Below are positions 7,691 through 15,079 of a stretch of DNA of 64,000 nucleotides, in pieces. The notes under the pieces were generated by a model, which had not been told where the DNA came from, searched no databases, and saw only the letters and a program-made list of their open reading frames with translations. This DNA comes from Xylona heveae TC161. Its lineage: Eukaryota > Ascomycota > Xylonomycetes > Xylonales > Xylonaceae. Both the position numbers and the translations under genes were made by a program. Every line of letters begins with the position of its first letter. Within the stretch, counting starts at the first letter, position 1. The stretch spans positions 62,001-126,000 of the forward strand of contig NW_017264200.1 of assembly GCF_001619985.1 (NCBI RefSeq), read 5' to 3'.

Positions 7691-9703
7691 ATGAAGGTCA
7701 AGATGTCTCGCTTACCTAACCGCTATCACAGCGAACCCAGAGACGAAGAAGATGTTGATGCATTGGTTAAACAACAGATATTGACCGAAGTTGAATCATC
7801 ATCACCGATTCGTGATCAGGGAGACAGACAGTCTTTTGAGAGAGATGAATCGGTGTTTCTTTTTCCTCACGACCAAGAAGACTCTTTGTCCCAAGCAGGT
7901 GAGGCTTGCCACGCGTTGAACGCGCATGCGCTTTCGGATTCGCCAAGCAGAACGCGTCAATCAAAGTCCAACGGAGATTTTCGCAGTACAAAGCCGCTCA
8001 AGGTGCTAGGGAAACGACGTCGACAGACCCCTCAAATCATTATAGGCGCGCCAAAGACAAAGATATCAGGGGTTTCTCGCTCGAGAGAGACTTCGGACGC
8101 ATCCGCCGTTCCTAATCATGATAATCATGGCGAAGAAAGGGACCTCCCCTCTCAAGAAGAATCAACAGTATCTGTCCTTGAGAGCGTCTCTGATAAAGAT
8201 AATATTTGTGGTTCTGGAAACTCAATACGAAATACACACGAACGTGAAGCCAAAGACAGCACCAAACTTGACAAGCTCAATGCGCAGACCAAGCGTCTAG
8301 ACATTACGGCATCCAATTCTCGGCCGGAAGAGCTGTTGAATGCAAATGATATTGCTTCTTCTCAGCATGAGCGAGCCTCCGAGTCTCGTGAGAACAGCCC
8401 CGACCACTCCGAAAATGATGCAGCGACAGAAGAATATAGCAGTGACGACAGGGCGCCCAGCCCCATCAGAATAGAACACGAAGGCCGCGTCAAGGGGCTT
8501 TTTGCCAGGCCATTTTTACTTCTCGATGAAATGCTCGAAGTTGCAGAGAAGTATTTCAGTTACGAATTAGCCGGGCCCAAAATTGCGCAACTCCTTCGGT
8601 CTATCGACTGCTGTCAAGAAGCTTTACAAGATTCTAATAGCCACACGCAGCAAGGGTCCAGCCTTGCGGACAAAAATTACGAGTCACAACTTGAAGGAGT
8701 GGAGAGCAATGTTGCTCAAATGTCAGCAAGTCCCACGAATGGAGAACGAAACAAGAAGCTTATTCTGGATATCTTTATGGGTGTTATCCCACGCCTCATT
8801 CGACTCTTGCAAACTGCAGCAGAGTGTTTTCTACGCGAGCCGCCAAAGGAAGACTCCATTAAAAAAGTCCTTCGTATCAATAGGTTGATTCAAGATATTG
8901 AATTGAAAGTGAAAGGGTGGAAGCGCGGAAAACCCCGTGGAGATGAAAGACTGAATGAGATAAGGGAGCAAGTTCTTGCACCTAATGTGGAAATGATAAA
9001 ACTCTTGAAGCGCAGATTGGTAGATCTTACTGAAAGAGAGCAAATGGCAAATCATGCCATCCAAAGGCAGGTTCAAAGACAATACTCTGACAATGAGGCC
9101 GCAACACTGGAAGTGAACGGGCAACAAGACAGGATGGTCAGACTCCAAGAAGAAAAAGAGGAACAAATATCTGCTGCTAGAGCACTCTCCCTGCATTGCC
9201 AGAGGACGATTGTAGAGCTAAAACGGCGACAAAGCGGCTCTGAGAGCATCAATCGCGCATCATCGCTGCAGTCAGCTGGTCTGGTGTCTATTATTTCCTA
9301 TAAAGACATAAATCAGGCTTCCAAAGCTGACCACGTCAGTGACGACGGCATTGATGACGACATTGATGTCCACGTTGTTCCTATGGATAAAATCCCGAGT
9401 AACACAAGGGATGACGCCGAAACTTGGCCAGACCAACAGTTGTTAGCGCTTCTTGATGGATTGCAACAACATTTAGGTATGACCCATATTCATCGAGGTC
9501 CCGGATATTTAATTCTCACAAAAACCACAGGAAGCGACCGTTATGCGGCGATGCTCCATTCACATGGGCAGGCCGGCAAACCTCTGCATGGGATGTCCAT
9601 TGAGCAAATCCAAGGTAAAGCCAAGGAAGTTAAAGCCGGCCTCGAGGCTTATCTACAACGATTTCCTGGCGAAACGTTGCCAGAATGGGTGCTCTCAATC
9701 TAA
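7691..9703 (+). CDS. Uncharacterised nuclear-type protein with C-terminal Myb/SANT-like domain
   Basis: Start at ATG 7691; an upstream TTG is not used. The frame is open to 9703, but I infer a 54-nt intron at 9477-9530 (GTATGA donor, CTCAC branch-like site, CACAG acceptor) whose length is a multiple of three and which contains no stop. Removing it joins HLG to SDRYAAML and restores a three-helix Myb-like pattern: W-PDQQLLALLDGLQQHLG / DRYAAMLHSHG / SIEQIQGKAKEVK. The spliced product is 652 residues. Residues 1-270 are acidic, Ser-rich and disordered. Residues about 280-330 and 360-510 are predicted helical or coiled (for example ARPFLLLDEMLEVAEKYF). Architecture (disordered front, helical middle, C-terminal Myb) recalls Taz1/TRF-type telomere or DNA-binding proteins, but no TRFH homology is visible by eye. 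Function unknown; DNA binding is inference. Confidence 0.7.
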   Translation: MKVKMSRLPNRYHSEPRDEEDVDALVKQQILTEVESSSPIRDQGDRQSFERDESVFLFPHDQEDSLSQAGEACHALNAHALSDSPSRTRQSKSNGDFRSTKPLKVLGKRRRQTPQIIIGAPKTKISGVSRSRETSDASAVPNHDNHGEERDLPSQEESTVSVLESVSDKDNICGSGNSIRNTHEREAKDSTKLDKLNAQTKRLDITASNSRPEELLNANDIASSQHERASESRENSPDHSENDAATEEYSSDDRAPSPIRIEHEGRVKGLFARPFLLLDEMLEVAEKYFSYELAGPKIAQLLRSIDCCQEALQDSNSHTQQGSSLADKNYESQLEGVESNVAQMSASPTNGERNKKLILDIFMGVIPRLIRLLQTAAECFLREPPKEDSIKKVLRINRLIQDIELKVKGWKRGKPRGDERLNEIREQVLAPNVEMIKLLKRRLVDLTEREQMANHAIQRQVQRQYSDNEAATLEVNGQQDRMVRLQEEKEEQISAARALSLHCQRTIVELKRRQSGSESINRASSLQSAGLVSIISYKDINQASKADHVSDDGIDDDIDVHVVPMDKIPSNTRDDAETWPDQQLLALLDGLQQHLGMTHIHRGPGYLILTKTTGSDRYAAMLHSHGQAGKPLHGMSIEQIQGKAKEVKAGLEAYLQRFPGETLPEWVLSI

Positions 9704-10517: not shown

Positions 10518-13500
10518 ATGGCGGATCGGGCCAAGGACGCCGGTAACCCTATTTCAGGGTCCCAAACTACTACATCGCGAAAGTCAACTGGTGGAACCCG
10601 CAGTACTCCGGTGAACTTGGAACGAAAAACTTCTAATGCATCACGCCCTGCTCCTGGGGTTACAAGAACATCCACACCTTCAAAACCTCCTGTAGGAACA
10701 TCAAGGCGGCCGACTACGGTTAGTCAACCGTCATACACCAAAGCTACAAGCTCGTCGAGCTCTCGGTCTGCGCCGACAAGCTCTGATCCCAAGCAATCGG
10801 CGCGACCTACTCCGATAGCAGCGCGGAAAACTACTGCTCCGACTGCCACAGCAAGTCAAAGCAGATTAGGCCACAGGTCACGGCCATCCATCAGCTCTGG
10901 GGATGAAAGTAAAAGTTCAGTTGAGACCACTGCTTCAAAACGCTCAAGTCTCTCTGAGCGGAGCATGGTCAAGCCCGCCTCCAACAAAATATCTCGACCC
11001 TCTCCCACCAGCGCACGGTTATCAAGAGACACAATTCCACCTGTCAGTCGAACTGTTGGCTCAACTCGAGCAAACGCTATAAGTTCTGCAAAGAGCATGC
11101 CTAGAGTACAGCCTAGCGCTGTGAAGAACGTTGTCACCCCAAGCATTCGCAAGCCCGGTCCTGCCGCTCCACGTCGCACATTTAGTTCGGATAAAGAAAC
11201 GGATTCAGGGACGTCAACTACGCAGTCTTCTAGGCCGATTATTGATCGCTCCAACGCGCCTGCAGTTCAAACAAGGAGTAACAGCGATTTGCAACGCCCG
11301 GTCTTCGGGAGAAAGCGATCCAACACCGTAAGTGGGGCTCCAACGTTCAACAATAGCGGACTTACAAAGGTGGATGAATCCCCTCACACCAGCGAGGGCG
11401 ACGGCTTCCAGCTGCGCCTCAGAGAGATGGAAGCGGTGAGTGAATTATTGCGTGAAGCAAAAGCACGGGATGTATTGGAAGCTCGTATCAAAGAGCTTGA
11501 ATCTACAAACGAATCTCTTGCGTCTGCATTGTCCAAAGTTGATTCAAAAGTAAATACAATGGAGCATCAACCAAATGTCTCCGATAAAGCAGCTCAGGAG
11601 TTGAAGTTGACCCTAGAACAAACTCAAAAAGAGGTAAGTTCTTTCAACTTATACTTAGCTTTGCTGTTACTTACCGTCATCGTAGTTAGCAAGCCTTCAA
11701 GCGAAGCTTGATTCAACAGAATCGGAGCTGAAGGGAATCCAGGACGCCAAGGTGACCGCCGTTTCTGAGCAACAAAATGAGGTACGTATTATGACGTTAT
11801 ACTCTCAGGATTACTAACATATTTGATGAAGGCTGCCGCCTTACAGCAAAGGCTTCATTCTGCTGAAGCCGAAATCCATGAATTGAAGCAAGAGAGAAAA
11901 GCAAATGACACACTAGCAGCAGAGGTGGGCCACTTAAATCAAATGTTGATGCGTGTCTCTAACTGAAGGCTAGTCCAAGACTCTCAACGAGAAGCTCCGT
12001 CTCGCTGAGGATGAACTTCGTACAGCCACGGAAACAAATGAAAAACTTCGAAACGAAAGCGAGACTCAAGTAAGCGATTCGCAGAAGTCACCGTACCGGG
12101 TTCTAACGTCCGCTACAGAGCAAAACCTCACAGGAACAACTTGATGCTGCAAAGTCGGAGCTGACAGATCTTCGTCAATCTTTAAGCGCAATCCGTGAGA
12201 AATCTGAGACGCAGGTAGGGACTGGATGTTAATCCTTTCTTTAACCAATACTAACTCTATATTCCAGACTCGGGAACTGGAAAGTGCGCTCCAAGCGTCA
12301 CAGCTTGAGTTGCAGCAAACTAGAGACACGCAAGTGGCGGAATCCGAAGAGAATTATAAGATGGTAAGGGATTTCTGGCTTCAGCATTTATACAGTCGCT
12401 AACGAAACATGCAGGTTCTCGCCGTCGAAAAGGAGTTGGCCACACTAAAGAAAGACCTCAGCGATGTGCATGAGGCGCGGTCTGCAGATCAGTCAGCTTC
12501 TCACGAGAAGGTATGGAGCGAAATCAAAAGCTAAAAATACTTACAATACTAACATTGGAATTTAGACAATGAGCGTTCGCAATGAATTGGATCTTTCGAA
12601 AAAACAATTACAGGAAATTCAAGATGCGCACAAGTCTCTCCAAGAGAGCTCTCATGAAGAAGTCGGTGCCTCCAAATCCTTGGGGAATGCAGGAAGCTAA
12701 CTCTTCCAGATTCTGGAACTGCAGCGCAAATTGAGCTCTGCCGAGACTCGATCTCTTGAAGCAGAGCAAAGATTTAAGGAGGCAAGAAATCTCACTTCAA
12801 ATGAAAGCACAAATCAATTATCTGATAATCGCTAGGTGCGGGTGCTTGAAAGAAAACTAGCATCAACAGAAACCGAATTGAATAGTCTCCGTGAGGCACA
12901 TGATGCCAATGAAAAATATTTGAAGACAAGAGTGGGTCAAATGGTATTTGAAGTTATTTGAGTTTGCCATTAACATTGAGCAGATCTCAGACCTCGAACA
13001 GCAGATACAGACGGCCAATGAAGTTTCTGAAAAGCTTCGTCAGTCTCAAGAACTTGACAGAAGTGCGGCGGATGCGGTGAGTCTTCTCTTCAGTCTGTAA
13101 GTGTCTTTGAGAGTACTGACATTGGTACAGATATCCGAGCTTGAAGAGAAATTGAAAGCAGCCCAGTCTGAATTGAAGACATTCCAAGCATCAAGCGAAG
13201 CCACTGAGCAAGAATTGACGGATAAAGTCAGTTTCTCAATGGGAAAAAAGTCACCCTCAATGCTGACCAAATGTTTCTAGGTTGCTTCTTGGCAAGACAA
13301 AGGGGAAGCTGCGGAATCCGAACTCTCCAAAATTCGCGAATCTTATAAAGAATTGGAAAATGCAACAACTCTCAAGGTAATTGGATCACCACTTGGAGCC
13401 CAGATCAGCTCTGACTTTTACTCAGATTTCACATTTACAGTCGGAGCTTGAGAGTGCAAATAATGAACTTGAAAGCTCACGTAAATCATTGATGATCCAA

Positions 13501-15079
13501 TCGACCAACTATGAAAAGAAGATTGATGATCTCAAGGCGGCACACGAGAAAGCTATTAAGAATCTCGAACTCGGGAATGAAGAAAGACTCTCAGCAGCAA
13601 ACGCAAGTTCTGCCAGCACTTTCAACTCTAAACTAAATGAGCTGAGAGCTGCACTTGATGCATCGGAACAGGCAGTGCGAGATTTGCGCGAGGATGCTGC
13701 AAAGGAGAGTGAAAAGTTTCATGAAGGCATGGAGCGTCTCAAGACAGAGCATGATTCGGCCATGAATGAACTCAAATCTTCCAACGAGGATAACACTGTG
13801 ACATTGAAAGCGCAGCTGGAATCTTCCGAGCAGAAGGTTACGGAGATCAATCGAAAATTCCTCGAGCTGCAAGGTTCCCACAAATCAGAGGTTGAAACTC
13901 TGCAGAGTCAATTAAAAGATTTCGAAAACAGCAAGACGTTGGACACCGAGCTCATTGACAAGCTCAGGTCCCAGCACGATAGCGAAATGTCTGTGGTCCT
14001 CGCGAAGCTGGCGGAAGCTGAAAAGAGAGAAAACGAACATAGACAGGAAATCCAAATCCTGGAAACTAATCATCAGAGAAGTCTGCAGGATCGCGATGAT
14101 GAATTCCAGAAATTACTCTCTGGAAAGATTGAGGAGCTTCGAGCCGCTAATCATGCCGCCATTAAGACTGAGAAAGAAGCGGCAGACAAAGAACTCGCTG
14201 AGAAGATCGACCAATTGGAAAGCTCTCATCGTCTCACTCTCGAGCGTATAGAAGAAGATCATCAGCAACAGATCAAATCGCTTACTGAGGGGACTCAGCA
14301 GAATGCAGATACGCCTCCGAGCACCAAATCCGCTCGCCGAAGGCGAAAGCGGAGCAACAAAGCTAAAAAGGTCGCACTCGACACTCGGAACGGCGAGGGC
14401 CACGTAGAAGAAGTCAGTCGGCCTCGCAGCGATAGCGTCCAGACGGAGTCAGCTGTTAGCACGACCTCCGATCTGTCAATGAGTGGATCAACCTCATCCA
14501 GCTCAACTCAATCTTCGGAGGAAAGTTTACGGGATCTTAATGCGCGGTGTATTCAGCAGGTCCTTGCACTGCGCGAGGAGATCAAGGCAGCCAACTTGGC
14601 CCGGGATGCCCTCAAAACCGAGATGCTCGCACAGCAAGAACGGTCTCGTATGCGATTGATTGAAGTTCAGGCAGAATTAAAGGTGACCGCAGCTGAGCTC
14701 ACCGAAATGAAGACACGTAGGGTTAAAAGCCCGGTCGGTAAGTGGGCAGATGGGGAGACTCTCCCGGGAGGAGGAGAGGAGAATAGTCTCTCCATTGAGG
14801 GAACTGTTAGGCTTCCCCCCTCTTGTTCCTCTTTTCCACTCGCGGAGCGACCGTATTTAAGAACCCCAAGCTGACTTTCTCTTCTTATAGATGGCTGGTC
14901 TAAGTCTGCAAGTTACACAGCTTGAAAGTTTAAATGAGGAGTTTTTACTCGAATCTTCCAGGTATGCAATGCGTGCTGCCGAATTGGGGGACTGAGCTAT
15001 GGCCATGCTGACCTTTTGCTTTAGGATGGTGAAGACCCTGTCTGTGGCCACCGAGACGAACGGGCCAAATAACGCATAA
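10518..15079 (+). CDS. Large coiled-coil protein with a tandem 96-nt exon array
   Basis: Sixteen exons: 10518-11633, 11686-11781, 11832-11924, 11974-12069, 12119-12214, 12268-12363, 12415-12510, 12566-12661, 12710-12781, 12836-12931, 12984-13076, 13131-13226, 13281-13376, 13426-14733, 14891-14961, 15025-15079 (1223 residues). All introns through the twelfth small exon are phase 0. The intron at 12782-12835 uses a GC donor. Exon 14 is started at 13426 rather than at the also plausible 13441 because only the former keeps the repeat register. Residues 1-300 are Ser/Thr/Pro/Arg-rich, basic and disordered, like microtubule-binding tails. Coiled coil runs from about 300 to 1040. A basic patch SARRRRKRSNKAKK lies near 1050, followed by a Ser-rich linker and a last short coil. 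The end is ambiguous: donor 14738 (perfect GTAAGT) would stop at 14925 (1194 residues), whereas donor 14734 keeps the coil open to 15079. No catalytic domain is seen. A scaffold or cytoskeletal role is inference. Confidence 0.8.
11686..13521 (+). repeat. Tandem array of 13 diverged exon modules (period about 145 bp)
   Basis: Exon starts fall at 11686, 11832, 11974, 12119, 12268, 12415, 12566, 12710, 12836, 12984, 13131, 13281 and 13426. Nine of the twelve separate small exons are exactly 96 nt; two are 93 and one is 72. The thirteenth module is the first 96 nt of the long exon 14. Translated modules align without gaps to the pattern xxxLxxKLxxAExELxxLR followed by a polar tail. Position 8 is Leu or Ile in all of the first eleven modules plus the thirteenth, and position 15 is usually Leu. 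Nucleotide similarity is low, so the duplications are old. Confidence 0.85.

Follow-up and report, generated by a model that had tools for sequence, protein, structure and literature searches.

Within one gene of Xylona heveae TC161, twelve short exons of nearly uniform length follow each other at nearly even intervals, and the question was how such a ladder may have come about. The window analysed was a whole stretch of 64,000 nucleotides; all positions below are window coordinates.

Gene structure and splice signals

In the rebuilt gene (Table 1), the twelve ladder exons occupied 11686–13376 and were all multiples of 3 in length, nine being exactly 96 nt, two 93 nt and one 72 nt. Under the chosen gene model phase 0 was found at all 13 ladder introns, which measured, in order, 52, 50, 49, 49, 53, 51, 55, 48, 54, 52, 54, 54 and 49 nt. 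The exon lengths and phase-0 introns of 48–55 nt given in the initial annotation were reproduced exactly, as was the distance of about 145 bp between exon starts (mean 145.0 bp; 142–151 bp, and 126 bp where the unit contains the 72-nt exon). The mean spacing is close to the size of a nucleosome. Modules were numbered by exon, 2–13 being the ladder exons and 14 the start of the long exon. The ladder had been drawn as far as 13521, which is indeed the end of the thirteenth 96-nt module; this module has no exon of its own and opens the long exon instead.

Table 1. Features of the rebuilt gene in window coordinates
Feature	Position	Strand	Remarks
Rebuilt gene	about 10518–15078	+	about 1,223 aa; splice borders predicted, not RNA-derived
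Exon 1	10518–11633	+	open frame from ATG; ends phase 0
Intron 1	11634–11685	+	52 nt, GT-AG, phase 0
Exon 2	11686–11781	+	96 nt, module 2
Exon 3	11832–11924	+	93 nt, module 3, individually weak
Exon 4	11974–12069	+	96 nt, module 4, individually weak; nearest module 5
Exon 5	12119–12214	+	96 nt, module 5; nearest module 4
Exon 6	12268–12363	+	96 nt, module 6
Exon 7	12415–12510	+	96 nt, module 7; nearest module 8
Exon 8	12566–12661	+	96 nt, module 8; nearest module 7
Exon 9	12710–12781	+	72 nt, module 9
Intron 9	12782–12835	+	54 nt, GC-AG; retention would give an in-frame stop
Exon 10	12836–12931	+	96 nt, module 10
Exon 11	12984–13076	+	93 nt, module 11
Exon 12	13131–13226	+	96 nt, module 12
Exon 13	13281–13376	+	96 nt, module 13
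Intron 13	13377–13425	+	49 nt, final phase-0 ladder intron
Long exon	13426–14733	+	opens with module 14, directly 3' of intron 13
Module 14	13426–13521	+	first 32 residues of long exon, ladder family
Intronless coiled-coil continuation	13522–14283	+	lag-32 tests, module comparison, long helix in AlphaFold2 model
Basic segment, C-terminal helix and two small 3' exons	14284–15078	+	composition, single-sequence AlphaFold2 model

The ladder introns carry strong splice signals. Donors were GT in 12 of 13 cases and GC in one (12782), and all 13 acceptors were AG. The motif YTRAY was located 10–15 nt upstream of the acceptor AG in 12 of the 13 introns, at a distance range chosen after inspection of these introns; on both strands of the whole window, 381 of 8339 AGs (4.6%) had the motif at that distance. 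In intron 1, CTTAC was found by eye in its place. An in-frame stop was present in 10 of 13 introns, including all five with a length that is a multiple of 3. Introns 2, 4, 8 and 13 are followed by an extra in-frame AG 15 nt downstream, the CAG codon of the fifth module position; the predicted borders used here agree better with branch distance and register. For intron 1, an alternative AG 4 nt downstream would break the frame. On the + strand, 9 of the 26 window matches to a strong intron motif fell in the ladder; outside it, at most 3 occurred per 2-kb bin per strand, and the whole-window total was at shuffle level.

By composition, the N-terminal 300 residues of exon 1 are basic and rich in Ser, Thr, Pro and Arg (pI 11.8), followed by an acidic, probably helical stretch. 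Proline is absent from 660 residues of coil, ladder included, and in a single-sequence AlphaFold2 model of the long exon residues 63–289 form a helix. The basic segment 3' of 14284 was modelled with low confidence, the C-terminal helix comprises about 73 residues, and gene borders 3' of 14733 are provisional. With a long helix in the long-exon model, regular hydrophobic spacing and no proline, the product is best read as a long, probably rod-shaped coiled-coil protein, in which a basic N-terminus is followed by a proline-free coil of about 660 residues, a basic linker and a C-terminal helix, and it may act as a rod or scaffold.

Searches for relatives covered parts of this product. Exon 1 and the long exon were compared with Pfam; exon 1 had no match at E 0.01, and a sub-threshold match of the long exon to cytochrome b562 (23.9 bits, cutoff 30) was taken as chance helical likeness, as was the one PDB entry obtained with the long exon (E 0.055), the name of which suggests a designed protein. 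In non-fungal collections, which say little on the family, the long exon gave 3 pattern matches among viral contigs and 45 among prokaryote contigs, and the C-terminal 73 residues gave 188 among prokaryote contigs, with 0 confirmed in each case. "M protein repeat protein" is a name for fungal coiled-coil proteins; a literature search with this name and Aspergillus found no paper. No paper title on a fungal coiled-coil exon ladder was found either, in a search largely outside subscription journals, which is therefore no proof that such a paper does not exist.

Relatedness and age of the modules

The modules follow one pattern, with hydrophobic residues at positions 1, 4, 8, 15 and 18, Ala frequent at 11, and a mostly polar tail; positions 4, 8, 15 and 18 are hydrophobic in 9–11 of the 12 modules of 31–32 residues. 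A length of 32 residues comprises three heptads and one hendecad, which allows further units to be joined end to end with the helix unbroken. Module 9 aligns with 8 internal residues lost in frame and both ends retained.

The proposal that every exon encodes the same 32-residue module was borne out by a sum-of-pairs score of 1844, compared with 647 ± 78 (maximum 970) in 2000 shuffles keeping the hydrophobic pattern, none of which reached it. The modules also resembled each other far more than other coiled-coil segments did, thirteen long-exon windows with hydrophobic positions 4 and 8 scoring 198, and the likeness persisted on polar residues alone (0/1000 shuffles). When each module was left out in turn, 9 of 13 were matched by no more than 17 of 2000 pattern-kept shuffles, modules 7 and 11 were middling (59 and 60 of 2000), and modules 3 and 4 were individually weak (163 and 282 of 2000); with free shuffles, all 13 were matched by no more than 3 of 2000. 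The exon-encoded modules are thus homologous beyond their shared hydrophobic pattern. The top-scoring pairs were the neighbours 4–5 and 7–8, and adjacent modules outscored random order (p = 0.043, computed without module 9), with no steady fall of similarity with distance (Mantel p = 0.195).

Mean pair identity of the modules was 23% over 24 residues, and silent sites were saturated (155 same codons, 160 expected). Across the ladder no tandem repeat was detected at the DNA level, the longest stretches common to ladder exons being 25 nt at 80% and 17 nt at 88%. Intron interiors had no mutual similarity once the last 21 nt were removed (393/1000 shuffles reached the observed mean), and adjacent ladder introns were not more alike than other ladder intron pairs. 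An initial positive result for intron homology (0/200 shuffles) came with the common branch motif and was gone after this removal. Since silent sites are saturated, intron similarity is not expected even if introns were copied. Judged by these sequences, the array is old; its divergence would be expected at such an age, but leaves no direct trace of an intron copied with its exon.

The 32-residue period returns in the long exon, there without introns, for about five modules, so that the agreement of exon and repeat borders described earlier holds in the ladder and ends with it. The period was detectable in protein residues 811–970 (about 13618–14097), and the lag-32 signal was reached by 15/3000 and 2/2000 pattern-kept shuffles in two tests. 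Strict spacing is lost in these intronless modules. Ladder modules were mutually closer (mean 23.6, 78 pairs) than to the five intronless ones (11.8, 65 pairs), and the split into ladder and intronless modules ranked third of 8568. The ladder profile gave a best E of 0.035 outside the ladder, and the best score in a scan of the long exon was matched by 295/1000 shuffles; single long-exon modules were not significant, and the sum of six matches was reached by 39/1000 shuffles. It is the lag test and this sum that support the continuation into the long exon.

Origin of the ladder

Tropomyosin and collagen genes encode rod proteins with a periodic sequence that is mirrored in gene structure; their repeat lengths and lineages differ from those of the ladder. 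Gene growth by serial exon duplication is an already known process. In Tetrahymena LRR genes, arrays of 90-bp exons are explained by serial exon/intron duplication with unequal crossing-over, and these arrays share with the ladder runs of one exact exon length near 30 codons, a uniform intron phase and, in the oldest array genes, introns of about 50 bp (PMC6564038). They differ in phase (2, with split junction codons), unit (90 bp, LRR), number (tens of thousands of exons genome-wide, here one array in the window) and in that groups II and III are detectable as nucleotide repeats (PMC6564038). With 96-nt units, phase 0 and a coiled coil, the ladder was not assigned to this type. Repeats of EGF, Ig and other domains, as described in PMC1553488, likewise have exon borders, located in linkers, that coincide with repeat borders above chance, and units often duplicated singly; those are extracellular globular domains with exon data from seven metazoan species, whereas the ladder encodes a coiled coil.

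We consider it fairly probable (roughly 0.7) that a single symmetric exon, belonging to an older coiled coil of 32-residue units, was copied serially together with its intron and that the copies then diverged. The initial annotation had named such duplication as the simplest history, and this stands, given one module family and coinciding borders; thirteen phase-0 borders at one module position argue for it as well, as do the relatedness of the modules, the likeness of the neighbours 4–5 and 7–8, the concentration of strong intron motifs in the ladder and the greater closeness of ladder modules to each other than to the intronless ones. The ancestral unit would by chance have been encoded in a 96-nt exon flanked by phase-0 introns on both sides, and repeated rounds of duplication, each copying one or a few units along with an intron, would have produced twelve same-frame exons. 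Later, sequences and introns may have diverged freely while selection kept exon length, phase and heptad register. A finding in Zymoseptoria counts against duplication: introns duplicated by routes other than introner-like elements, tandem copies included, account there for <1% of recent single gains (PMC4457414).

The repeats might instead have been intronless at first and received an intron each at a splice-prone site, as in introner-like gain, which is established in some fungi according to PMC4457414. Exon ends of GAG, AAG or CAG before a GT donor in 6 of 13 cases, with one further GAG before the GC donor, make a recurring site possible. Introner-like elements are described there as near-identical and long (PMC4457414), whereas the ladder introns are 48–55 nt with dissimilar interiors, and no later repeat received an intron. 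In filamentous ascomycetes, gained introns had no significant phase bias or site preference (PMC532390), for which reason thirteen separate insertions at one codon border would be odd; all introns of the ascomycetes in that study lean to phase 0, which makes the uniform phase of the ladder somewhat less striking. Insertion is judged distinctly improbable.

Another account shares the duplication origin: the whole coil (about 18–19 modules) would once have had an intron at each repeat border, and the 3' introns would have been lost together, e.g. when a partial spliced cDNA recombined with the gene, which would have produced the long exon and made the ladder a remnant. The return of the period in the lag-32 tests and the position of the intronless part 3' of the ladder are consistent with this. 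The intronless modules are, however, farther from the ladder modules than those are from each other and have lost strict spacing, and fungal intron loss was found not to have a 3' bias in PMC532390, so that block loss seems unlikely. That selection on a coil of fixed 32-residue pitch imposed the regularity on convergent, non-homologous modules would agree with the low mean pair identity and with the individual weakness of modules 3 and 4, but is hardly credible: the likeness survives the fixed hydrophobic pattern and the polar-only test, neighbours 4–5 and 7–8 are most alike, and the introns are left unexplained.

Rod length and the reading of introns

At the known helical rise, each 32-residue module adds about 4.7 nm of rod length. 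The ladder could act as a length ruler, in which selection preserves a separate symmetric phase-0 exon for every module and lineages or isoforms gain or lose whole units; this we consider improbable. If true, relatives or transcripts would differ in rod length by entire modules. The suggestion that length is tunable today by crossing-over or skipping found no support, the DNA copies being diverged and forming no tandem array. Alternative tuning by exon skipping fared no better: intron retention predominates in two published RNA-seq studies of fungi, skipping having been recorded in 4 of 231 alternatively spliced genes of Fusarium, while intron retention made up 93.4% in Trichoderma, and skipping as a regulator was dropped as a main claim on these figures.

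Located in a genome stretch with strong intron motifs otherwise at chance level, the ladder offers a natural example, compact in size, of a coiled-coil rod whose growth may be read from introns. Since 13 modules of the 32-residue unit come with introns and about 5 more are intronless, orthologues could serve to test copying against later insertion and against block loss of introns.

Gene model and intron signals

The ladder, twelve small exons that each encode one coiled-coil module of about 32 residues, falls inside a single plus-strand gene, and its exon lengths in order (96, 93, 96, 96, 96, 96, 96, 72, 96, 93, 96 and 96 nt) agree in every case with those of the initial annotation. Exon 1 is followed by 13 introns of 48–55 nt; behind the long exon, which begins with module 14, lie two short 3′ exons with provisional borders. 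Pfam families were matched in nine of the ten neighbouring frames scanned (Zds_C, PTPA, MFS, Med7, Saf4/Yju2, translation GTPase, RanGTP-binding protein, Rad4 domain and AATF), and two further frames matched homoserine dehydrogenase and mRNA cap methyltransferase. The source is presumably fungal and probably an ascomycete.

Features of the gene and its upstream neighbour
Feature	Positions	Strand	Remark
Upstream gene	7703–9700		Single-exon open frame, ~666 residues, no Pfam match at E 0.01
Exon 1	10518–11633	+	Frame open from ATG
Ladder exons	11686–13376	+	Modules 2–13
Ladder exons plus introns	11686–13425	+	Mean spacing 145.0 bp, near nucleosome core; may be chance
GC-AG intron	12782–12835	+	Directly after the single shortened exon (72 nt)
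Long exon	13426–14733	+	After the ladder
Module 14	13426–13521	+	First 32 residues of the long exon
Intronless recurrence	13522–14100	+	32-residue period, offset about +5 residues, further on about −10

Donors were GT in 12 of the 13 introns and GC in one (at 12782); in a read-through of this GC-AG intron the first 8 codons are open, and the exon would reach 32 residues. A YTRAY branch motif was located 10–15 nt 5′ of the acceptor in 12/13 introns, against a background at that distance of 381 of the 8339 AG dinucleotides of the window (4.6%). In-frame stops were present in ten introns, including all five with a length that is a multiple of three, and the three introns without a stop had lengths that are not multiples of three. 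Introns 2, 4, 8 and 13 are followed by another in-frame AG 15 nt 3′ of the acceptor, within a CAG codon at module position 5. Across the window, a strong intron motif gave 26 plus-strand and 25 minus-strand matches, which is the level of shuffled sequence (mean 28.3 per strand, 10 shuffles); nine of the plus-strand matches were ladder introns, with at most three on a strand in other 2-kb bins. This strict motif is no count of all introns, since four in the ladder escaped it and one of its nine matches there ended at a different AG.

Relationship of the modules

Modules were compared over 24 residues each, ungapped and aligned at the exon start. The sum-of-pairs score was 1844, compared with −566 ± 88 after free shuffling of each module, 647 ± 78 (maximum 970 in 2000) after permutation within each module's hydrophobic pattern (pattern-kept shuffles), and 198 for 13 control windows taken from the long exon, each hydrophobic at positions 4 and 8. 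At lag 32 the spliced ladder had a self-correlation of 0.62 vs. 0.11 ± 0.08 (0/2000 shuffles), which persisted on polar residues alone (0/1000). In leave-one-out scoring with 2000 pattern-kept shuffles per module, no more than 17 shuffles equalled the score of any of nine modules; the counts were higher for modules 7 (59) and 11 (60) and highest for modules 3 (163) and 4 (282). A profile built from the thirteen modules gave 15–32 bits against each of these same modules, on which it was trained.

Residues of the set LIVMFWY occupy positions 4, 8, 15 and 18 in 9–11 of the 12 modules of 31–32 residues, and position 1 in seven; alanine stands at position 11 in 8/13 modules, and the final third is mostly polar. 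The spacing 3-4-3-4-3-4-3-4-4, which sums to 32, was read as three heptads plus one hendecad. By alignment, the 72-nt exon fits an internal loss of eight residues, with both module ends retained.

Mean pair identity was 23% (first 24 residues), and at 494 module positions sharing an amino acid the codon was identical at 155, vs. 160 ± 10 for permuted codons. Tandem Repeats Finder listed no repeat at the ladder; the longest DNA repeat among its exons, shared by modules 2 and 5, covered 25 nt with 80% identity, modules 6 and 13 shared a further one of 17 nt (88%), and no mutual similarity of intron interiors was found after removal of donor and branch regions. Module pairs 7–8 and 4–5 were the most similar. 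Adjacent modules were more alike than in random order (p = 0.043; 12 modules, short one omitted), and no overall fall of similarity with distance was found (Mantel p = 0.195).

Period in the long exon

For the 254 coil residues behind module 14, the top lag among 1–69 was 32, its value being reached by 15/3000 and 2/2000 pattern-kept shuffles in two runs, by 6/1000 shuffles on polar residues alone, and by 19/500 when any lag from 12 to 79 was allowed. The profile scan of this coil is weaker evidence than these tests: the sum of its six best matches was equalled by 39/1000 shuffles and the best single match by 295/1000. In the block lag-32 test, residues 779–810, adjoining module 14, gave no signal with the following 32 residues; residues 811–906 were clear, 907–938 weak, and the remainder negative. 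Five intronless modules (starts at residues 816, 848, 870, 902 and 934) were picked from the profile scan and by eye, a choice biased toward ladder likeness, and gave mean pair scores of 11.8 against ladder modules and 9.2 among themselves, compared with 23.6 within the ladder. Their register was the best among 33 shifts, and the ladder/non-ladder split ranked third among 8568. From lag-32 tests and module scores, the 32-residue unit thus probably extends past the exon ladder, and the ladder modules are a tighter group than the intronless ones.

Proposed history of the ladder and predicted protein

An old coil of 32-residue units, one unit within a symmetric phase-0 exon, would have been the starting point, and duplications of exon plus intron would next have formed the ladder; this is the economical history. 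Repeated insertion of introns into existing repeats and block loss of the introns of 3′ modules are both weakened as alternatives, because in filamentous ascomycetes intron gains have neither significant phase bias nor site preference and losses have no 3′ bias (PMC532390). Against duplication, the intron complement of those genomes, regardless of age, favours phase 0 (PMC532390), and in Zymoseptoria duplication other than that of introner-like elements accounts for less than 1% of recent gains (PMC4457414).

The principle of repeated exons with borders matching repeat borders is already known. Linkers of EGF and Ig repeats often hold exon borders (PMC1553488) and Tetrahymena LRR genes carry 90-bp phase-2 exons by tens of thousands (PMC6564038), whereas the ladder encodes a coiled coil with thirteen phase-0 borders. 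A literature search by title found no fungal coiled-coil case combining thirteen such borders with an intronless continuation.

The predicted protein has a Ser/Thr/Pro-rich, basic N-terminus (pI 11.8), followed by an acidic coil without proline and another basic linker. The single-sequence model of the long exon (mean pLDDT 76.5, pTM 0.23) contains helices at residues 2–57, 63–289 and 361–433, with low confidence across most of 288–363. Judged from the protein type, the product is likely a putative cytoskeletal or cortical scaffold rod.
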